From: Tubulanus polymorphus
Taxonomy: Eukaryota; Nemertea; Palaeonemertea; Tubulaniformes; Tubulanidae
NCBI RefSeq assembly: GCF_964204645.1
Contig: NC_134026.1
Location: 1,860,001 to 1,924,000, forward strand
Reading direction: 5' to 3'
DNA: 64,000 nucleotides
Numbering within the stretch: position 1 is the stretch's first letter; each line of letters begins with the position of its first letter. This document shows positions 460 through 22,811 of this stretch, in pieces. A model generated the notes under the pieces. It did no database searches. It had not been told where the DNA came from and saw nothing but the letters and a program-made list of their open reading frames with translations. Made by a program: the position numbers and the translations under genes.

Positions 460-3400
460 CTGTGCTCTACCTCTTCCCATGAGAAATCAGTTTTATCAAT
501 CATTTCTCGTAATTTAGCGCGGTTGCTGAAAAACAGTGCCAAATCCGTAGCCAGAATGCAGTGCTTGATATCGGACAGCACCTGAACAGACAATCAGAAC
601 AATATTATAGAATTATCAATTCTTTTCTGTCTGTTCATCAGTCAGAGGAATCAATGAATTATTTTACCTGTTTATATTCGTCTGATGTGAGATGTTTGAA
701 TATGTTGTGTCCGTCGTGCTGAAAACGTGAAAGAAAACTTACATCAATGAGAAAACAAAACTATATTCATAAATTTGAAAAGTAACTTAATGTCGAACGT
801 TCAAAAATCGGCTGAATTTGATTGGTAATAAGAAAAGCGATACTAACTTAAAAATTTCGAGAAATAAAGATTAATGTGCTTTGCGTAAAAACGAAATGAT
901 ATTCATAAAAGTATTTGACTATTACAGCGTCAGGCGGCGCACTTAAAAAAAAATGGAAAATGGCGATGAAATTTGTTTGTGGGAAAAATCAAATCTTTGA
1001 AATTAACATCGCAATTTTCATAAACAGAATTAGAATATACAACTGGAAATGAAAAGCAATTGGTAATAATCCCATAACGACAAGACTTCATCTTCATTTT
1101 AGTGTCAAAGCAATTCTTGTCAACGATTCCGTCATCGGAATCAGGATTTATTTTATCCACCCACGCAGACGTGATTTGCGTGATCTCAACCTATATGGTT
1201 ATCGAGAGGCAGGTGTCGAAATTCAGTACGCCCGATGAGGGCTCAAATACACATTTACTTAAGAACTTTATACACTTTTGGTTGAATTATTGTGGGATTT
1301 CATTCGAAATTCTAACGTATTTCAGAGAGAAGATGGAGGTGTTTGAAAATGAAAAAAAAATCATAAAATAAACGTGCGGTGTCGTAAATGAAACTGAATA
1401 TATTTCCCACATAATAATAAACTGGGAAGTGATCGTAACATTACAAAAATCTATCTTACTTGTAATATGTTAACAGTATAGTTAAAATGGTGATTCTCCA
1501 TGGGAGAGGAGGAATATATAGCGGCTAGGGGAGACGCACTTTTCACTATAAATGCATTACTTCTCCCACGATGGTCGACATCATGACATAGGCATGCAAT
1601 AAAGAACGCTATTTGCTGAAATAAGTTAGAATGACAAAGTGGTACAAGAGTGATATTACATACTATATTGTTGTTAGTGGAGTAGGGGGGTAGAAGGGCG
1701 TGGTGGTCTGTATCGGTGGATCTCAGGGGTGATGGTGCGCCGCCAGACATATTCCCAGCAAAAAGACATCAAAAATAGATATTTTGATATCCGTATACCA
1801 GCTAGTTATTCGTGGGTTGTTGACTGACTACCTGTAGAATAGTGACAGTTTGGTTGAAATGATGATGTTCCATGGTCGAAGTAGAATAAATTGCGGCGAG
1901 AGGAGAGGCACTTTTCACCATGAACGCATTTGTCTTTCCTCTATGGTCAAGGTCATGGCAAAGACATGCAACAAATAATGCTAGGCACTGCAAGATAATT
2001 AGATTAACCATCAAACAACGTTAACGTCCACCAACTTTGAATAAAAGAACTATTTCTTTACGCAATGCTCTCGATCATCGAGAAACCTATCTGAAAAAAA
2101 ACATCATCGAAAAAGAATCAATTTCCTTTTGACCTTTGCGACCGATAAAAACGCGATCATTTTCACGATGGAAATTTCCTGTACGTACAGACTTCTTTTC
2201 ACTGACATGTTTACCCTTAATGACGTCACGGAGCAGCTACCCATTCAGTGGACTCGTGTATAATGTAGAACTAAGAATGAATTTCTATGAAATGAAGTCG
2301 TTCGTATGAAATACTCGATAGTTCGTGGTTCTCGTGTTTTCCATATCGGTTTTCGATAGCGAATACGATACGAACGCAGTGTTTGACCGTTAATTCGTGA
2401 CAATTCCGAGAACCTTCGGATATTTACGTTAAAAATGAACGAAGTAACGCGCACGTACCTCTAATGGAGTAAATAAATTTGTCGTTGTTTTGATAACGGT
2501 ATACATGGCATGCGCCACCGAGAAAGCATGCGCCCAATTATGATAGGGTACATTCCGATAGTTCTTCCGTACTGTAAGTGTGAACTTCATCAAACATTCC
2601 TTGTCGAATCTACGAGAAAGATTTAGAGTAATCAATGAAACTGGTATCCGTGAAAACGTCAGTTTTAGTTCCAACGTGAAAATTTCTTATTCCATGCAAA
2701 ATTCCACGTAACTGCAAAATAATATCATCAAGTAAAACAAGATTATATTTTCTTTCCGAACGAATTCAGTTGACTTAAGATGGGAATATTTCTTATCGAA
2801 ATATCGATAGCACTGAAAATCATAACCCTTAATTTATCTTTCATGCTTTTTATACGAACAGATTAATGGTGCGTAAAACGTATTAAGACTCAGTGAAAAC
2901 ACAGGAAAACTCGACACGATCTGAGACTAATATTTAACATCGAACTATTTCGAATAAACAATCGTTCACTACAAGAATGTGTCTGAAAATGCGCATATGT
3001 ATATAATTTTTTGTTGTATTTCAGTTTGAAAAAAATCACAGCAAAAAAACAAGAAATCAAAACCGATACCATATGATGATATACGTATATATAAATGTGT
3101 CAAAGAATATATCATGAACTCTACGGAAGGATCGAGGTTAGGTTGAAATTCAACGAGTCGATAAAGTTGAAATCTACTATAAATGTTAGGTGTGGACTGC
3201 ATTTATCTCATCAAACCATTGAGATATAGGATTATGCTCTGGATTTCTCGAAGGACGAATTGAAAATCTTCATCTTCGTCATAGAATGATAGAAAGAAAA
3301 TCAGAATTAGAAATACCTCCACCGAAATTAATTGTGAAATAAATGTTAGACGATTGGTAAAATTTCTGAACAATTGGATGACATACTGAGATGTATATAC

Positions 3401-6400
3401 ATACAATCCCCTAGATTTGTACGAACTACACGCATCGCTCTTCCTATTTTATCAAATAGAATAATTCGATTCAGGTTTCTCCAAATCACTAAAATCTATA
3501 TCTACAAGCAACAGATAAAAAAAACGCCGGGAAAATATTTGAAAGAAAAAAACCTCAGCCACCGTGTTATGAGAAATACTGTTAGCAGTCGACACAGAAC
3601 TAAAGTAACCTCACCTCTTGTCAATAGGGAGCGATTCAAATTGCTCCGCTCTTCGTTTTGAAGCACTTAGAATGAAATAAAAACGGTCATGAGAATCGAT
3701 GTAAATCCCGAATAAAGAAATGCTCGAGAGCCCGAAATAAATCACATAGAAAAATATTCAACAAAACATTAGGCAGAAGAGAACGTTCATAAAATGTGTA
3801 TCTTTTTTAGATATGATATGATATCCTACAATGAAATGAGAAAGAAGCAGTCCACACCTCTGGCTTTCTAGAAATAAATTTCGGATAATCATTATAAAAA
3901 GGTTAAGATGATATAGAAAGTCCGGTGTATATAAGGCTATATACCTTGTATCTGTATCTTTTAAACTAATGCTAAAAGAGAGAAAATGTCCAATCGTGTT
4001 AATTGGTTTTCTGTGTTATTCCACTGAAATCCATCGGAAACATGATCGTGACAGTAATTATTAGCTATATCATCTTCTACAGTTGCTTACGTAGGTTATT
4101 TCAGGAAATTATTTATTTCAATGGAGCAGCTTTTTACTCGGGTTACTATCGTAAATCACTAGTAATACGATAGGCTTTGTTGTCGTAACGGGAATTAACT
4201 AATGACAAATTTATTTTTACCTTTGTAACTTGAACAAATCTTCAAACATATGAATAACGACAAGCGGCTTATCGTCACCGTCTATGGACCACGGCGAAAA
4301 TTCATATCTGCAAACATGAAATACGAGTACAGTTGAAGTTGAATACGCAATATTCATTATATTAAGACATTAGTGTATTTTGAATATCTTACTCTTGTAG
4401 ATGTACTATCGATGACGGCAAATCTCTTGTTTTTAATTTTTCCAACTCGTCCTCCGAACACTGGCTGTGATACGACAGAACCTCCAACGCTACTTTATAT
4501 TTCTGTTCCGATCGCCGAATCTTTTCGTACAGCTATGAAATACAAAATCGAACACTCGTCGTACCGAACGCCCAACTCGCTATACGAGGGTTTTTATCAG
4601 ATTTATTCGGTTACCTTGGCATGATGCAGCGCTAGTCCACAATAAATGGCAAACGTTTCGAACGAATCTTCATCAGCGATCGTAAATTTACCGTTTAGTT
4701 TATTCACCATTTGAACGACGCCAATTATACTGTAACGATAGATCAACATCCATACAGTAGCAGTTTAATCGTGAGTAACAGGGGCCAGTTGCATAGTCGT
4801 GACTTAAGTCCAAAAGTGGTCACAAATCTTTAGACTGGTCTTAAGTTGTTAGATTGGCTATAGAACTAATTTGGTCTTAGACTGGTCTTAAGTCTAAGCC
4901 ATGACTGCGCAACCGGCCCCTGAAGTCGATTTTCAATTTTCAATCAGAAGAATTAGAAATATTTTTACCTTCCACGTATGTATATAGGCATACAAAGTAT
5001 CGTATTTGTTGTGTAACCAGTCTGAAGATCGACATCTCTGAAATGACCAGATATCATTGTCACCATATTCCAGGGACAAGCAAAGATACACGCTCACATA
5101 CGGTAGATAATCTTCAATTAAACCCCGATTACCGGTTAAATCTTCCATTAGTCCCCTCGTCTTACCGGTTAAATCTTTCGTCTTGATAAGCATCGGGAAT
5201 ATTCAACGTTTGTCCAGTCGAAGCTACGTGACCGGCGATACCTTTATCAATCGGAAATCTGAATTAGATATTGGCAATCAATTAGTTAAACTATATCATC
5301 ATCCTTTATTAGAATTGATAACTGTATATTATCTTTAAAGGAATTTTTGATTTAATCATTTCAAATGCAAACACCAATGAATTTCCTCTTAAAGAGAAAT
5401 TGATGAAATATAATGCATTATTGCTATCGAGGATATTGGAGTTGAAGATGATCTTTGTCGTAATGAGCTTCGGTAATAATTGTCACTCGTCGCCGCTAAG
5501 CAGACTTCAGGCAACTCTTCATTATACATGGGCGATCTATGAAATTTGTTTGATATCTCTTATCAAATATTGATGCGGCGGTAATAATTTCCGTGAATCG
5601 ACTGTAGTGTGCAATCGGTGCAATTAACGCGCACTGAATGCGAATCGGAGAGTTTTCCAGGAGGCATGGATGACGATGATTTCTGTACAAACATAGTTAT
5701 AGAAATGACAGCGAAATTACGAAAGTAACATAAACCAGTGCATACAGAGTACGAAGAGAGATAGCTTTAGGTAAAGGGATCCACCGTTCCAGAGTAAATG
5801 GAGTTGAATAATATATGGTTTCGAATTGGTTTCAGGATCCGAGAATGAAATTTCTATCGAATTTAGTTATTAGTTTCATTCTACGGATTTGCGAGGTTGA
5901 TTTGACAGGGATAGATTATTCATTATATATCGAAAGAATTAGCGAACACAAACACACGTAAAGAGAATCAAAATAGATTACAAAATTAAATCCAGCAATA
6001 ACTGTACACTTGATCAAAAATACATGTATTTTTGACTAGATAGATAAAGAGGGATAGAGCTTTCACATTGACGCTAATGAGAGATAATGCAAACAGAACA
6101 AGTGTTCAGTATAGTCTGCAACCTGTCAAAACGTGGGAAGGAGTCTGCGAAAGAATTTTAAGTAATCAAATATTAATGAACGTATAATATTCATGAAAGC
6201 CAAATATACGAACACAACAGTGCTTAACACGAGCAGTCATTGTGATTTTGATACCGTTATAACTGAGTACACCAGCACAATATAAACTTCTAACGGACCA
6301 TGAATACAGTGGCAAGTGGCTTGGTTTTGGGCATGAGGCCAAAACAGATTAGAAAAGCGATCGTGAAACAGCCCCTAAAAAGCTTAGTGCAAGCAATGCG

Positions 6401-9400
6401 ATTTAGCGTGCTATAATACGTGCAAGTCACCATAAACCATGAGTTAAATTTTCAGCAGTCAATTAAATACATCAGCAATTCACGTGTGATTGAAGCTGTT
6501 CTATTGAATACAAGCCAAATTGATTACGTGCAAACTTTCAAACCTGATTTCTTTGCCACAGTCTGGTATGAAATCAGTATCATCTATACTACCAGTATCA
6601 AAGATCCTGGCGTATAATTCCATGGTATTTATGTCAACCAGAAACAAGGATGCCCGGTCAGCATGTACTAATGTTTTAGCGTAATTCTGTGAAAAAGAGA
6701 ACACACCACAATCCACATTTAAAATGTCATGCAACATGCAACGTACACCGCAAAACCGTTGTGATGATCGGCCGTTTTGCCGATCAATTTCTGGGATTTT
6801 CATCCCCACAAATTTCAAATACGTATTGGAAAAGGTTTCGTGATTTTTTGCTGATGGACAAAACCAAGTTTCATTGAAAAATGAATTATTGGCCCAAAGT
6901 TGGAAATGAAGAAAAAGCATGCTGAATTTCTCGGCGTTTCGATGACTCTTTTGACGAACGCTTTTTAATTAGCGACTCAGCAAATCGACATCTTATGCAT
7001 AAGACATGGGCAATAATCGATAGGATTTTGAAAACAAATCCATCGAGGCCCTAATCAGTCGCCAAGGCAACATGGTTCACGTTGGGCATCATCATCAATA
7101 TTGGTCAACGCAGCAGTCAATAAACGAGTTCTTTTCTCAATTCAGTGATTAATATGCCGCGGTCATATTGAGACCTGAGCAATATCTCCATTAGGCTTTC
7201 CATAAATCTCAATTCAACCTGTCTGATGAGACACTCATTAAATATATATATGATTCTACTGCCGATACCCCAGCCCCGCGACGACAATGACCTTGACACC
7301 CCCAACGAACGTAATAAGTAGATTGTAATCAAGTAGACGCAACTAATTTGTTTCTTCGTGCAAAACAATTCACCAAAAAAGCATTTTGTAAACAGCAAGC
7401 AAGGGTGCATGCAGCTTGCTCCGTCACACAATGCCGCCTTAAACGCAGTGAAAACCTGGAATTCACACGTAGAGACAGTTGGGTTGAAACACTGAACGGA
7501 TCATCGTTAGAATTCCTCGATATTAGCGAGACGAAAAATGAATCGAAATTTTAGATTCTAACCCTCAAAAGAACAGCAGAGGCGTGATCACTTCTACTTT
7601 TCTACTTCCTAGCGGTAATTCTCTTGTAGTGTGTGATTTCAACAGAAAAGTCTCTACGCTAAGGTAACATTGAACGAGAATTTCTACCTTATCTCTTTGT
7701 GTTGGCTATCAGCAGGCTGAGCACCCAACCCGTTACCAACATCAAATATTCTCGCATATAACTCCCTAGATACGTTGTCTAGTAGGAATAAAGATGCTCT
7801 ATCTGCGTTCACCAACTTTTGAGCATAGTTCTGTAGCATTGGGCAGAAATCAATCATAAATTTACAATGATATTTAATGGCAACCCTTATAAATTTTTGA
7901 AAACATAATATATATAATATATAATATATGATCTGAATTGGCTTCGTACTATTTTGAAGTCAAACTTATTATCGTATTTTTCAATTACATCTTTTCCGAA
8001 TTTTCAATTCAATTTTCTTCTGACGAAATATATGCGACTTACCATAATCTTCATGATCACCGTGTCCATGCTGACAATATCTTGAAAGATCGACCTAGAA
8101 TTAAATGAAAAATTAGAAAGACGCGGCAAAACCTATCGCGCATAATGATAACAGTAATTACTCTTCGTAAAGCAAGGAATAATGACATGATGTTATTAGT
8201 CACGAATGTCGTTACAAAGACAAGCTGCATGCACATAGAACTTATTTTTGCTTAGAAATATATCGATAAGACCGAAGCGTTATTTCTTACTTTGTCACCG
8301 CTAATAGGAAATCATTGAGTTTCCGTTGTTTCGTCATGCTGTGATACATCTACAAAAAATAAACATTGACAAACGTACATTACATTCGTAATGTTCATCG
8401 CAATAACGCATTGACAGAAATATCATAGTTGCATCGGTGATAGAACTACTTTATTAACGATTTTCATTTTGATATCAATTTCTTTCAAGACGCGTAAAAA
8501 AATGAATACTGAAAAGGCACTGAATTTTACAAATTGACAAATTAGACAATATGTCATGATTTCAACAGTATTTTTTGATTTGAGAAATATAGCATCAATC
8601 AATAAGGAAGCTACAATCGAGGGCCAGATACCAGTAAAAGATTATCTTTATTACACGAATTTATATATAATTCATAAAAATTTGAATTAGAATTCCTGAA
8701 AAGAAATTATGACGGAAATTTCTCTGACTTTACCAAAGCATTACCAACGGCATTACATACAATGAATGTAGCAGACATGCGATAATTTATCTAGGCTACT
8801 AAATTCAACGTTACAAGAAAGAGTTGTTAATAAAACAATAGTGCACCGAGAAAAGTCATTGATTGAAAAGATTAGATGTTTTCTTTTTTTTGTTAGAGTT
8901 TACTATAATAGTTAGACATCAGCGTTTACTTAGTTCCAAAGTTTTCATCGTTAATTGGGTGAAATATGAATGTAAGCGATGGGAGGTTATGTGCACTTCA
9001 TGGACTGTGTGAAAATCATATATCTAAGCATTATATCACTAAGGACGAACCTCATTGTCCATATAATTCTGAAAGTGCCAGCAGCAGGAAAGGCAAAATA
9101 ACAGGGAACTTATTAAAAATCCCAACTTATATCCCAAGTAAAATGAGCAAAAATGTAGAAATCAACTTCGATAACCCATTATGAAAAATTGATAGTCAAT
9201 GAGAGTTGGTTTATGTGGCTCTTATCCCGAGATGACAAGATCTTTTACTCTATAATAAACCCCTCGTACTAAACTATAACTACTGTAACAATGTGCAGTG
9301 TAGTAATCATTACTAAGATATGTTCTCCGTTGATTTCCATCGGAGAAAAATAAGAAGTCACAATATCGTACACAGAAATAGATTGCCCGATTCGGAATTC

Positions 9401-12400
9401 TAAGGTGGCAATAGAAGAAGAAGTTGTACACATTGCTAACACAAGATACGAAAGAAGCATGCAATAGTATACCTCCGCTAAATGAACCGTTATACTCCCC
9501 CATATCAGAAGGCTGCTGCATATCTGGTCAGTAAGAAACATAAATATACAAGCAAGCAATTAGTGTCCAAACACTTGAGAGTATGATGTATGATGCAGAA
9601 AAAAAAGAAGCTGTCTCGGGACCATGTCAACCGATTTCAATCACTTAGATTTAAAAAAAAATCATCCATTTTGGGAAAATTTGGTATGCAGGAAATAATA
9701 AATTGAGAGACCATAAAACCGAGCGAATTCAAAATTGCCCCAACACACAAAAATCTGATTCCAAAATGCCACGTCAACATAGAACATAAAAAGGATATTA
9801 CTCCCAGCAGAAAAAAGCGCATAATGTCAACATTGAATTGCGGTTCAGCACAATTTCGACGCGTTCAATGCGAGCAGGTTTGCTTAGAGACAGGTTTCTA
9901 GATTTCTCCTCACAACGACATGTTGAATTATACGGGTTGAATTGAGTTCTGCATACAAAATACCGTTGAATTTTTTGAAACTTATTCCACCAGAAATTCA
10001 ATTGTTGAATTGAAATTGATTGTTTATATCCAGATCATCCAGGAGACAGCTTCATTTTTGCATTCTAGTGAGGATCGAAATTGTGCACTGAATTAATGTA
10101 TTCAGAGTAAGAGGGAATCCACGCCTGGTTGACTAGGGATTAAGCACCGGTCTCCACCAATCCCTGACTGACCATAGATTTTTTTACCTCGGCACACGAC
10201 ACTGCTACATTTCCCCAAACAAGATAACTGCTGGTAATCTAGAAACAAATAAGTTTTATCAATGCTATCTAATGTATATTACTGACAGTCAAAACCACGG
10301 ACAATATTGTTCAACCTCGCTCAATTAATCTGTAATGATATTATTACCTTTCACACTGCATTCGCTTTAAAAAAAAGTGTTTATTGGAATATATTCCTGT
10401 TGAATAACTATGAACTAACCAACAGTTTTATTTTTCCATCCGTGGCATTAACTATGAACTCGAGAATGACAGGTGAACGAATGCAGGGTAAAATGTAGAA
10501 TTAATTCGTTGTTAATGGTAAAAATAATAAATTTGATAAAAAATAGACATATTACAAACAGCATTATATTTCATTGCAAGCCCAAAGTTGTAATAGTTTG
10601 TGATAGGCTGATAGCCTGGCAAAAATGAGAGACAGCCATTTTTTACTTGATCGAAGGAAATTCATCCACGAAACCATTAAAATGATACCATTAGAGACCG
10701 CGAGTTTATTTTATCCGAAGTTATCAATCATTTTCACCGCAAGCCAATCAGACCTATTTTGTAATATAGGATATAAAGGGATCCCGGACACCGGCTGAGA
10801 GTGTGATGTGTGGGGTGATTGAACGTTGCAGCATTGCAATTTTTACCTCTTCACATTTTAAAGCTAAATGACTCCATAATAAATGACTGGCTGCCACCTA
10901 CAGATAAATTCATCAATTTCTAAAAGAAATTTTCTCCCAGAAAAATTTACGGTTGCAAATAAATGCACTCTTTAACGTCATCGGTTTATTAATTTTTCGT
11001 GTGAATAAAGAAAACATCACGAAATTTTAACCATAGGATCAGTTTTATCGGAGGTGGAATGATTCAGAACAAATATCTATAAATATATATACATGTCGAA
11101 AAATTATAGGGTCAGTGTGAAAGATGCTAAATAAATGTGAATCGCTCGAGAAGATGTTTCAAACAATTATGCGAATCGGTGGAATGTTTGTTTTCATCAT
11201 GGTATTTATACCCGGGGTAAAATGAATGCGACCTTTTGTACGTGACGTTTTATATCATTGGTTATTTGTCTCGAATGATGAGTGGCGCGCGCCGGACGTG
11301 ATTGCCATTAGGCAAACGATCAACCAATTACTGCAATTTACTGAATTTAATTCTACGCGAATTCCAAGCCATCAGGTTTATTTTTGAAAAAACGAAACCA
11401 ACTCGTCTGTGTATAAGATGTGCATCGTGCCGACCAAAACGGCGATGAAAATGCTCAAGTTCACGTAATGATTAATAGTTATAATGTAAACATTCATTGT
11501 TTGTAGACCCGGCAATACACGAAAATAAATATGGCTATTAAAGACAACAGGCATTTTAGATTGCGGTATCCATTGCATTCATATAATACGGCTGTAGCCC
11601 GACTACACTGAAATTGCCTGTTTGTAGGAAATGGCTGAAGAAAATATTATATTTGATATCAAATATCAAGGACGTGAGGACCGACCTCCCTGCAAATAAC
11701 AATCATTCGGATAAATCTCATAAAACGGTCCACAGCGACGAAGCGTTGGTAAATTCGTAAATTCGAATTTTTTTTGTTCGAGCTAAATCTGAATTTCCTA
11801 CCTCTTCATCTTCTTCGGCAAATGCAGCGGTTCCGACGTTTCTGTACAGTTCTACCACACCTGATTTATAACGAATATAATTCAATATAGAACAAATACA
11901 ATTCAATTTCGGGGTTTGACATATATTGCTGCATACAAGAAAAGATATAGAAAAGTTTTTAAATTTTTCAATATTTATCGATGTGAATTTCATGTTTTTA
12001 AAAGCTCACCAACGACTTGTCCATTAGACTGAGTAATTGGTTGCGCTAATACTGTTTGTGCATGGTCACCCCCGATACCAATCCCTTCTGGAAATCTTTC
12101 ATCCTGAAATATCACACGAACTCATGCAGTCAAATAACTATAAATACCACGGATGATACTATATTTAAAATAAATGATAAATGGTCTGTGCTCATATTTC
12201 ACTAATGATAAGTCAGTCACTCACTCCTAGTATTTCACTGGTGCGTATAGTCTCTTTAGTCGTAGCTACGTAAGCCGACAGAGTCGTTCCTTTTCCTAGT
12301 TTTCTCGAAGAAACGGCACCACTGAAATTAGGTTGGTTCTTCTGATTAGATATAGGATACGCAGTAACTAACTAATACTTGAGGTATTAATGATGTAGTG

Positions 12401-21400: not shown

Positions 21401-22811
21401 TCGATTACTGGTATTTGCAATATATATATTTGTATATATATTTATATTTTGCTCATAAACATTGACACCGTGCGACGGAGAAAGATGTTTCAATCTACGT
21501 TCGAGCAAATTCGAAAGTTTCGAGGGTTACATTCTCAGAATTGTATTATCGGAGAAATTTAAAACTACGCTCAGTTGAAAATGTGTTTGGCGCCAGATAT
21601 GCTACTTCCCATTTGCGCATTTTACCTGTGCCATTTCGTTGCCACTTCAAATAGTTTTTTGTCAACCAATTGGCTTCCGTAATTTATGTGAATGAGTATT
21701 TGGACGAGGGGATGACTTTCTCTAATCCTTTTGTAAACCAAAAATTTTTTTTACTGTTTTTTTTCAAGATAATTGATTTGTGAATACTAACTATACAATA
21801 AAGATTACTTTCAAGATATTATTCGTAATATCGTATTCATTATAACGAAGATAATTCATATTGAATATGAGTATTCATTAACGGTATATCTGAAGCGAAA
21901 ATGGATATAGCGAATCGTCGGCTGAGGGTTTGGAAGATATTTATTTCACGTGTAAAAGGAGGAAATTATAATGAAAACGTAAACATGCCGCGTAAACGAC
22001 CATAATGACTAGAGTACAAACCGAGCCAAATGTAAATATGAAAACCAGTCTATATTTGTTAAACTCGACTAAATCTTGGCCGTATATATGTAGTATAAAT
22101 ATACCTTCTTCACTTCGCTAGTGAATTCACTTGGCAATTCTATGTTCATTCTGATGTAATATATACGTATATAGGCAGAATTGCAGAATTGCAGAATTGC
22201 CATGACGTACGAACGAATTTCATTTTAGATGCTTTTACGTAGTTGGAAATGTCAAATGAATCAATAAGGTTGCGATATAAAGCCGTTGATATAGGTGTCT
22301 ATATAATAGACATTCGTACACGGGTAAATAACAAGAAAATCTGCGAAGAAATCATTTCGGGGCATGCTCCCCGGTTACTATAGAAACATGCACAATACAA
22401 AGGTAGCAGTACCAGAGCGCATCGAACTCCAATAAAATTCCCGCAATAATGCTTCAATCAGTTGTAAATTTCACTTGTCTGTTTAAAAGGTACATTTAGA
22501 AATGAATAATATATAATTTCAACGTTCAGTCAGCCATCTATCGATATCAAATGTTTACATCGTTTAGATTTGCGATGATGGCATTAGTTCGATTTACCTT
22601 TTCCTTTTATGACCATTCCAGTAGAATCAATCCCAGATCGGCTTACACCTTTACCGGATCCACCAGATCGTGAGCTGTACGTGCTTCTCATGTATGATGG
22701 ACTACCCGTTTTTAATACGTTCCGCGACGGCACAGGGCTAAGCAGCTTACCAGTTACCCCCGGCAGCGGAGGTAGTCGTCTAGAATTTATTTGCCGAGCA
22801 GGGCTAGACAT
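460..22811 (-). CDS. PDE10A: PDE10-type dual-GAF cyclic nucleotide phosphodiesterase, partial (C-terminus beyond left edge)
   Basis: Hydrolyses cAMP/cGMP; PDE10 enzymes have two GAF domains and a class I catalytic domain. Minus-strand exons, 5' to 3': a first exon (22598-22811, 14894-15017 or 14235-14325), then 13141-13308, 12969-13015, 12777-12888, 12640-12689, 12519-12550, 12225-12321, 12010-12103, 11802-11860, [one of 10847-10897, 10188-10238, 9473-9523], 8291-8349, 8043-8094, [7688-7830 or 6544-6686], 5166-5258, 4969-5037, 4615-4729, 4393-4532, 4221-4307, 2459-2609, [1832-1987 or 1460-1615], 668-718, 460-581. Every junction is GT..AG and phases agree; one path gives 679 codons and then leaves the window. 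Seen motifs: DERFP and VVELYR in GAF-A, NADR and the NIPDAY segment in GAF-B, YHNWAHA with the catalytic His (exon 2459-2609), HDLDHRG metal motif, [11 protein letters not shown]10 rather than PDE5/11 because of the short N-terminus and the STSTME-HHF type sequence. About 90 C-terminal residues are missing. Confidence 0.93.
1460..1615 (-). CDS. PDE10A: PDE10 alternative catalytic exon, copy b (HDVDHRG)
   Basis: 156 bp, phase 0-0, TTATTTCAG|...|GTAAGA with a good branch-like CTAAC upstream. Encodes [20 protein letters not shown] and [15 protein letters not shown]. Metal-binding His and Asp are kept; changes against copy a include TSTMEH to SSPMEN and NQTV to NYTV. It lies 216 bp downstream of copy a and is fully intact, so it looks like a functional alternative and not a decayed copy. 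Confidence 0.92.
1832..1987 (-). CDS. PDE10A: PDE10 alternative catalytic exon, copy a (HDLDHRG)
   Basis: 156 bp (52 codons), phase 0-0, TTGCAG|...|GTAGTC. Carries [20 protein letters not shown] and then [15 protein letters not shown], including the His-Asp pair that binds the catalytic metals. This copy is nearer to vertebrate PDE10A than copy b. It follows ...LFTPLE of exon 2459-2609 and precedes [10 protein letters not shown] of exon 668-718. Confidence 0.93.
2221..2228. promoter_or_regulatory. Perfect CRE palindrome in a PDE10 intron
   Basis: TGACGTCA, the full CREB/ATF site, in the intron between the YHNWAHA exon and the duplicated catalytic exons. Function is inference; no exon or promoter signal was found beside it. 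Confidence 0.35.
4780..4922. mobile_element. MITE with GGGGCCAGTTGC-type ends, in a PDE10 intron
   Basis: Starts AGGGGCCAGTTGCAT and ends GCGCAACCGGCCCCT; the whole 143 bp folds back on itself (GTCTTAAG repeats inside). Diverged relatives lie near 26,505 and 51,850. Confidence 0.65.
6544..6686 (-). CDS. PDE10A: PDE10 alternative GAF-B exon, copy b
   Basis: 143 bp, from TTTCACAG to AG|GTTTGA, same length and phases as copy a about 1 kb upstream. Encodes [18 protein letters not shown]...LYARIFDTG...KEIR. The loop after FDTG is [12 protein letters not shown], more acidic than copy a. The donor GTTTGA is weaker than the GTAGAA of copy a, which hints that this copy needs help to be used. Either copy joins 5166-5258 ([13 protein letters not shown]) in frame. 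Confidence 0.88.
7688..7830 (-). CDS. PDE10A: PDE10 alternative GAF-B exon, copy a
   Basis: 143 bp, from CTACAG to AG|GTAGAA, entering in phase 0 and leaving in phase 2. Encodes [18 protein letters not shown]...LYARIFDVG...KEIR, the first strands of GAF-B (human YAKNLVNADRCALFQVD...LYSDLFDIG). The loop after FDVG ([12 protein letters not shown]) is the part that differs most from copy b. Confidence 0.9.
9473..9523 (-). CDS. PDE10A: PDE10 alternative linker-helix exon, copy c
   Basis: 51 bp, phase 0-0, TGACCAG|...|GTATAC. Encodes [17 protein letters not shown], closest to copy b (SS-L--WG) and with His and Ala placed as in the vertebrate AIHQVQ segment. It joins exon 8291-8349 ([16 protein letters not shown]) in frame. 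The flanking frames stay open by chance, so the ORF around it is longer than the exon. Confidence 0.78.
10188..10238 (-). CDS. PDE10A: PDE10 alternative linker-helix exon, copy b
   Basis: 51 bp, phase 0-0, TTTCTAG|...|GTAAAA. Encodes [17 protein letters not shown], aligning without gaps to copies a and c with Ser, Leu/Val, Trp and the final Glu conserved. Intact splice sites and frame. Including two copies together would keep the frame but lengthen the helix by 17 residues. Confidence 0.8.
10847..10897 (-). CDS. PDE10A: PDE10 alternative linker-helix exon, copy a
   Basis: 51 bp, phase 0-0, TGTAG|...|GTAAAA. Encodes [17 protein letters not shown]. It matches the human PDE10A stretch that follows the GAF-A LYRHWG region (pattern VxxxxLxWxxxA) and leads into the helix joining GAF-A to GAF-B. 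It follows exon 11802-11860 (...EEDEE) in frame. It is one of three same-length copies; copies b and c lie downstream. Confidence 0.85.
13739..13847. mobile_element. Palindromic MITE with GACCCAGTTCC ends, in a PDE10 intron
   Basis: 109 bp, left end GACCCAGTTCCACAGTT and right end AACTGAGGAACTGGACCC, with ACTCAGAG-type internal inverted repeats. The right half is shared with 44,578-44,613. Confidence 0.6.
14235..14325 (-). CDS. PDE10A: PDE10 alternative first exon 1a (cysteine-rich N-terminus)
   Basis: ATG at 14325, 30 codons plus G, donor GTTAGT. It begins [17 protein letters not shown] and continues with Arg/Ser/Lys residues. The Cys pair in ACFCLGRF beside basic residues resembles a palmitoylation site. 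Phase 1 fits exon 13141-13308. It is the first exon nearest the shared gene body. Confidence 0.65.
14894..15017 (-). CDS. PDE10A: PDE10 alternative first exon 1b with MGxC acylation-type start
   Basis: Reads MGQCMSSGS... for 41 codons plus one G, then the strong donor GTAAGT. The phase (1, ending G) is the same as exons 1a and 1c, so it joins exon 13141-13308 as ...SLN-D-LSPELV. Gly2 with Cys4 (MGQC) is the usual form of an N-myristoylation/palmitoylation signal and would attach this isoform to membranes. A second in-frame ATG at 15104 would bury the signal, so the start is not certain. Basic residues (IKRK) follow near the exon end. Confidence 0.6.
15105..19125. other. Long intron of the PDE10 gene; no gene seen
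   Basis: AT-rich with only short chance frames; a C-run near 17,480 is the only notable tract. No exon or repeat supported. Confidence 0.5.
19126..19182 (-). CDS. PDE10A: PDE10 optional 57 bp coding exon in the long 5' intron
   Basis: Minus-strand TTTCAG|GCCAGCC ... TCAAATG|GTAAGA bounds a 57 bp phase 1-1 exon. It reads [18 protein letters not shown] between a split Gly and the split Asp that opens exon 13141-13308. Joined after exon 1c it keeps the frame. It also has an internal ATG (MTSN) that could start a short N-terminus. Being symmetric, it can be included or skipped without a frameshift. Evidence is splice sites and phase only. Confidence 0.45.
19183..22597. other. Long intron of the PDE10 gene; no gene seen
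   Basis: No supported exon. Contains short AT tracts and a small GCAGAATT triplication near 22,180. Confidence 0.45.
22598..22811 (-). CDS. PDE10A: PDE10 alternative first coding exon 1c (Pro/Ser/Gly-rich N-terminus)
   Basis: Open frame from the first in-frame ATG ([10 protein letters not shown]) for 71 codons plus one base, ending AAAG|GTAAAT. It ends in phase 1 with G, exactly like first exons 1a and 1b, and so can splice to 13141-13308 or first to the 57 bp exon at 19126-19182. The encoded segment is rich in Pro, Ser, Gly and Arg and is probably disordered. The frame stays open upstream of the ATG to a TAA near 22895, and no clear acceptor was found, so the 5' end is uncertain. A non-coding 5' exon may lie at about 23.4-23.6 kb. 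Assignment to PDE10 rests on phase and position, not on homology. Confidence 0.6.

Follow-up and report, generated by a model that had tools for sequence, protein, structure and literature searches.

The window analyzed here, a stretch of 64,000 nucleotides of DNA from the nemertean Tubulanus polymorphus, carries a phosphodiesterase (PDE) gene of the PDE10 type in which exon 20 is present in two versions, 20a and 20b. The two are genuine tandem-duplicated alternative exons: they lie next to each other, are homologous, have equal length and phase, and each is bordered by splice sites of its own. We consider it likely that they serve as alternatives within this PDE10-type enzyme, most probably with one copy per mRNA. 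An earlier note on this DNA had described two 156-bp phase-0 exons lying 216 bp apart, which proved exact to the base (1987–1832 and 1615–1460). Its picture of duplicated exons held for this pair but was incomplete, exon 20 being one of several duplicated exons in the gene. The features of the exon 20 region are as follows.

2459..2609, minus strand: exon 19, constitutive in the model, with the HN..H segment YHNWAHAF
1832..1987, minus strand: exon 20a, 156 bp, phase 0-0, HDLDHRG; from splice sites and frame, used in RefSeq isoform X4 (P0001)
1616..1831, minus strand: intron between 20a and 20b, 216 bp, from the gene model
1460..1615, minus strand: exon 20b, 156 bp, phase 0-0, HDVDHRG; from splice sites and frame, the apparently derived copy
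668..718, minus strand: exon 21, 51 bp, from the gene model

Both copies have GT-AG sites. Exon 20a has the acceptor ctaattatcttgcag and the donor CAG/gtagtc, and exon 20b the acceptor tctaacttatttcag and the donor CAA/gtaaga. The flanking exons named by the note, 19 and 21, join either copy in frame. The copies share 39 of 52 residues and 71% of their DNA, a likeness that stops at the exon edges. The claim that the metal ligands are kept while their neighbors change was borne out: the His–Asp ligands of HDxDHRG are unaltered in 20a and 20b, and 13 of the 52 residues differ. From 20a to 20b, the changes are C553Q, L554I, L556F, V558I, L565V, K570R, T571S, M575I, T588S, T590P, H593N, Q598Y, and T601N, in the numbering of PDE10A2, counted along the structure alignment from the residue that we take to be His563.

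The gene lies on the minus strand, running from about position 22,691 of the window (the first residues of P0001) to 2,019 bases past its left end; the window sits on a contig of 31,900,244 bases (C2) in a 268-Mb genome. Our gene model comprises 28 exons (numbers 2 to 26, three of them paired) and reads through 766 residues to a natural stop, whichever copy of each pair is chosen. The predicted protein has two GAF domains followed by a PDEase_I catalytic domain. Among the 60 solved-structure matches listed, which include no PDE11, the catalytic domain built with the b copies ranked PDE10A first (306 bits), ahead of a PDE5/6 chimera (255) and PDE2 (224). For the full-length a form, full-length PDE5 chains ranked first among solved structures. 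The best database match was P0001, the NCBI RefSeq protein of Tubulanus polymorphus, isoform X4, and relatives carry the names pde-5, PDE10, or PDE10A across many animal phyla. By these similarities, we class the gene as a PDE10-type cyclic-nucleotide phosphodiesterase, which presumably breaks down cAMP and cGMP. The genome holds at least one further PDE10-like exon, on another contig: an exon 20 at locus L010 (G000:C1:21264937-21265086), probably of a paralogous gene.

The earlier note had asked for the dN/dS ratio between the copies. The Nei–Gojobori estimate (NG86) gave a dN of 0.156 with a saturated dS, and YN00 returned no value; therefore, the ratio has no figure. Other measures showed selection on both copies. 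At the 39 shared residues, 16 identical codons were observed against 15.5 expected under full synonymous saturation. When neutral evolution was simulated to equal DNA identity, none of 20,000 runs kept 39 residues (mean 24, maximum 34). The absence of stops in 20a and 20b is uninformative by itself, because 31% of the neutral runs also stayed stop-free. The saturated synonymous sites, together with a protein identity that no simulation matched, therefore imply that both copies have been under selection as protein, and by this comparison they have been kept as such long enough to erase their synonymous memory.

For the conservation of exon 20, we compared 159 segments from 157 of 240 proteins. 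Each 90% cluster is shown in the database by a single representative; Tubulanus P0001 stands for a cluster of 13 members. P0001 carries 20a without 20b. Copy b departs at three well-conserved positions of the exon: position 36 is T in 155 of the 159 segments, position 23 is M in 135 and I in none, and position 46 is Q in 102 and Y in none. No relative of 20b was found among the 159 segments, which, as cluster representatives only, are weak evidence of absence. By these comparisons, copy a is the conserved, ancestral-like form, and it is probably also the default. Copy b is a derived form under its own constraint. We judge it very probable that 20b is functional and used.

Exon 20 is accompanied by other duplications. 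A scan of the 28 exon peptides against the locus found only the pairs 13, 20, and 23 below E = 0.02. A tandem exon 10 pair, located between the GAF domains, was recovered from P0001, being too short and too diverged for the peptide scan.

10847..10897, minus strand: exon 10a, 51 bp, 17 residues, from the gene model and P0001
10188..10238, minus strand: exon 10b, 51 bp, 17 residues, joined after 10a in P0001
7688..7830, minus strand: exon 13a, 143 bp, start of GAF-B, from the peptide scan
6544..6686, minus strand: exon 13b, 143 bp, second version of the GAF-B start, from the peptide scan, used in P0001
L002 9857-9746 (C2:1859857-1859746), minus strand, beyond the window: exon 23a, 112 bp, from the peptide scan
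L002 9203-9092 (C2:1859203-1859092), minus strand, beyond the window: exon 23b, 112 bp, from the peptide scan

Exon 23 contains the last metal Asp and substrate-pocket positions, and its two versions differ at 19 of 38 residues. P0001 reads 13b, 20a, and 23b, plus 10a and 10b joined. Both exon 10 copies are also present in Mytilus edulis X9 and Saccostrea X5, the first only in M. edulis X23, and neither in X19.

The pairs differ in how the reading frame treats a wrong join. Doubling or skipping exon 13 or 23 leads to a premature stop. With exon 20, the frame runs on to the natural stop in each of the four combinations (a, b, both, or neither). The point made beforehand, that a 156-bp exon is not policed by frameshift, is thus correct, and among the pairs 13, 20, and 23 it applies to exon 20 alone. 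Frameshift decay was rejected as the enforcer of the exon 20 choice, since every combination is open. Crowding by a short intron was also rejected: 216 bp is not too short in a gene in which seven introns measure 80–89 bp. Nor does a U2/U12 mismatch apply, the GT-AG sites of 20a and 20b being not U12-like as judged by eye. A further possible route is the U2AF-dependent repression described for duplicated exons (PMC5224494). The two copies are probably mutually exclusive.

As a means of such a choice, the earlier note had expected an RNA structure or a protein factor. A candidate stem of moderate strength does bridge 20b, but it would explain only a default use of 20a. The introns flanking 20b carry two inverted copies of GTCWGGCGGCGCAC, at 1748–1735 and 942–929.

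1735..1748, minus strand: upstream stem arm (GTCTGGCGGCGCAC), inverted copy in the intron between 20a and 20b
929..942, minus strand: downstream stem arm (GTGCGCCGCCTGAC), inverted copy in the intron between 20b and exon 21

The predicted stem is GC-rich, with 13 pairs, one mismatch, and an energy of −26.8 kcal/mol. Excluding the mismatch, its predicted pairing probability was 0.96–1.0 in a 1163-nt fold and 0.87–1.0 in four other extents. Of 100 shuffles, none reached its helix score; in a larger set, 25 of 5000 did. Perfect inverted repeats of 10 nt with at least 8 G+C and 100–1500 bases apart occurred at four places in 74 kb, the stem among them. With up to two mismatches allowed, the 14-nt motif appeared twice in the window; the genome of 268 Mb contains five exact occurrences, against one for the backward control. 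In this geometry, 20b would lie in the loop and both the 20a donor and the exon 21 acceptor outside it, in keeping with 20a as the default. The whole-intron duplex energy of the first two introns was also considered and set aside: 16 of 40 shuffles gave values as low, which is not significant.

A mechanism can be proposed from these elements. Either copy would supply the His–Asp ligands and the surrounding helix, so that the metal site would be complete in each isoform, though its surroundings would differ slightly. With three similarly built pairs (13, 20, and 23), the enzyme would be assembled combinatorially. Frameshift would remove the wrong joins at pairs 13 and 23. At exon 20, the predicted stem would loop 20b out and move the 20a donor closer to exon 21, favoring 20a and impeding the joining of a to b. 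The use of 20b would then need the opening of the stem and the skipping of 20a, brought about by some factor. We put the chance that the stem contributes to the exon 20 choice somewhat below even.

Several observations weigh against exclusive use of the two copies governed by this stem. Exon 20b was found in none of the proteins listed, a set of one representative per cluster, and two of the 159 segments are nearer to b than to a, although both are divergent (22 versus 24 and 21 versus 23 identities of 52). One annotated Tubulanus protein, P0001, joins the in-frame copies 10a and 10b. Both exon 13 types stand in one protein model in P0063 and P0084 (Biomphalaria), and two exon-20-like segments in P0002 and P0045; these four double-type models may be annotation errors. 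The stem itself is one of nine intron pairs examined, and correction for that number gives about 0.045. Among the 105 intron pairs of the gene, 12 outscore it (35.0 to 40.5 versus 34.5), each over a search area larger by at least 22%. The whole-intron duplex energy of the last two introns is not significant, with 3 of 40 shuffles as low. A competing pairing upstream of 20a, which would lead to the skipping of 20a, was not found among the intron pairs examined.

In one rival reading, both copies are used, RNA-binding proteins and unequal splice sites decide between them, and the stem is there by chance. We give it close to an even chance. The donors do differ in their match to U1 (6/9 for 20a and 7/9 for 20b), and the statistics of the stem are only moderate; yet the motif is rare in the genome, and two inverted copies of it nevertheless flank 20b. 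It is rather unlikely that 20b is a cassette sometimes added after 20a as a 52-residue insertion. The doubled form would stay in frame, and the joined 10a and 10b of P0001, M. edulis X9, and Saccostrea X5 offer a precedent. However, the insertion would presumably repeat the metal-ligand helix within a compact catalytic domain, P0001 has 20a alone, and the predicted stem would impede the a–b joining. It is unlikely that 20b has dropped out of splicing and is now silent or decaying. Its absence from the listed proteins would agree with silence, and a very recent loss of use is compatible with the data, but the synonymous saturation, the protein identity beyond the neutral expectation, and the intact splice sites and frame speak against decay. 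An assembly artefact or a copy imported from another PDE gene is most improbable: a PDE10-like exon does exist on another contig, but the copies differ at 29% of their bases on a 31.9-Mb contig, and 20b is closer to 20a (39/52) than to that exon (33/51), which disfavors an origin of 20b from this paralog.

The alternative use of tandem copies, our preferred reading for exon 20, can be set beside the history of the other pairs. For exon 23, 59 of 120 listed proteins were chosen by hand for species cover, and no segment was obtained from three; adding the two Tubulanus exons gave a tree of 58 rows (54 different) and 38 columns. It yielded a b-type clade with a support of 99/97, holding 28 rows: molluscs, Tubulanus 23b, Lineus, Lamellibrachia, a rotifer, and one unnamed record. 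Tubulanus 23a grouped with arthropod and bivalve sequences (86/83). In Mytilus edulis, models of one contig carry both types, X19 having an a-type exon 23 and X9, X22, and X23 a b-type one. For exon 13, 44 proteins were chosen, of which one failed, giving 45 rows. Here, the b-type clade contained 17 rows (99/98) on long, doubtful branches, and Tubulanus 13a grouped with gastropod sequences (90/80). For both trees, the program warned of too few columns and unsettled bootstraps. Both types of pairs 13 and 23 are present in molluscs. We read these groupings as suggesting that pairs 13 and 23 are older than the nemertean/mollusc split; 20b has so far been found in Tubulanus alone. Separately, the exon 23 sequences of echinoderms and hemichordates fell into two separate groups that hold no other sequences (99/93 and, weakly, 80/51), which may reflect an older or a second duplication there.

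Residue positions show where the duplicated exons lie in the enzyme. We take the metal ligands of PDE10A to be His529, His563, Asp564, and Asp674. Duplicated exons carry three of these four, unchanged between the two versions. A review of the enzyme names, in its available text, eleven active-site residues of PDE10A (678, 685, 689, 692, 693, 713, 725, 726, 729, 730, and 762; PMC12571622). None of them falls in exon 20 and five fall in exon 23; therefore, exon 23 is the likelier site for a change in substrate or inhibitor fit. Position 678 is M in 28 of 28 b-clade rows and in 2 of the 30 others, which mostly have S, N, or V. Position 693 is M in 27 of 28 b-clade rows and F or Y in 28 of the 30 others, and position 697 is W in all 28 and Y in 27 of the 30. 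Positions follow PDE10A2 numbering. Because the groups were defined by a tree built from these very sequences, the counts describe a pattern and do not test it. For exon 20, a measurable catalytic difference between the 20a and 20b forms is somewhat likely.

Systems of this kind are known in other genes. In the available text of PMC9741552, substitution events between tandem duplicated exons are reported for human PKM, PFKP, KHK, ACOX1, FYN, and CACNA1C/D; like the Tubulanus pairs, these are adjacent homologous exons of equal build. The ligand-binding residues are mostly kept in both versions, including all five FAD-binding residues of ACOX1, and CACNA1C and CACNA1D have three events per gene, suggested to act in concert (PMC9741552). 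The human events tend to spare residues that bind ligands (10.7% of predicted functional versus 14% of all residues), and no PDE gene is named in the main text of that study (PMC9741552). In contrast, two of the three Tubulanus pairs bear catalytic metal ligands. In the muscle myosin heavy chain of Drosophila, several clusters of alternative exons in one gene swap pieces of the motor domain; it differs from the Tubulanus gene in the enzyme, the animals, and the larger exon sets.

Human PDE10A shares the GAF–GAF–PDEase architecture with the Tubulanus protein and is its best catalytic match among the solved structures listed. Its splice variation lies mainly at the protein ends (PMC12571622), and PDE7A3, of another PDE family, is reported to lack part of the catalytic domain (PMC12571622, PMC13095499). 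The available texts of these two sources describe no exchange of catalytic exons for human PDEs. As far as our searches of the open-access literature show, the kind of system is known, but no case of swappable catalytic exons in a PDE was found, and neither the gene family nor the placement at the metal site has been described. For RNA control, docking-site/selector structures are established for mutually exclusive exons such as those of Dscam (PMC6071210, PMC8042237, in their available parts). A survey found pairing of an internal with an outer intron to be common in mutually exclusive clusters, and the Tubulanus stem likewise would pair an outer with an internal intron across one exon (PMC6071210). 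Unlike docking/selector systems, in which at least two selectors compete, exon 20 has a single predicted pairing, and no second selector competing for one docking site was found.

More broadly, we tentatively propose that spiralian PDE10 may be a modular, splice-programmed enzyme, in which exchange at pairs 13 and 23 goes back to before the nemertean/mollusc split and Tubulanus has added a third pair, bearing the first His–Asp metal ligands, whose switching is helped by a loop-out stem. If so, at least eight catalytic or regulatory variants differing in pocket residues would come from one gene, giving several tuned versions of a cAMP/cGMP-degrading enzyme. The exchange would take place inside the active site, with three of the four metal ligands and 5 of the 11 pocket positions on duplicated exons. 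Isoforms that differ at 13/52 (exon 20) or at half of the residues of exon 23 would reveal which second-shell and pocket residues govern turnover, the preference for cAMP or cGMP, and the fit of inhibitors. One frame-neutral pair beside two frameshift-sensitive pairs also offers a clean way to test how exclusivity is maintained.

The remaining features of the gene model are listed below.

3615..3665, minus strand: 51-bp exon found in P0001, located between exons 18 and 19
460..581, minus strand: exon 22, from the gene model

The 766-residue model without the 51-bp exon at 3665–3615 is also in frame, and this exon may therefore be a cassette. The introns flanking exon 13a show AT-rich complementarity (7995 region with 7555 region), with a score reached in 4 of 100 shuffles. 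Adjoining the gene, a long open frame on the minus strand of L002 1-1059 is rich in Gln, Pro, and Ser and contains repeats resembling QQNYQRSIQHQQ.
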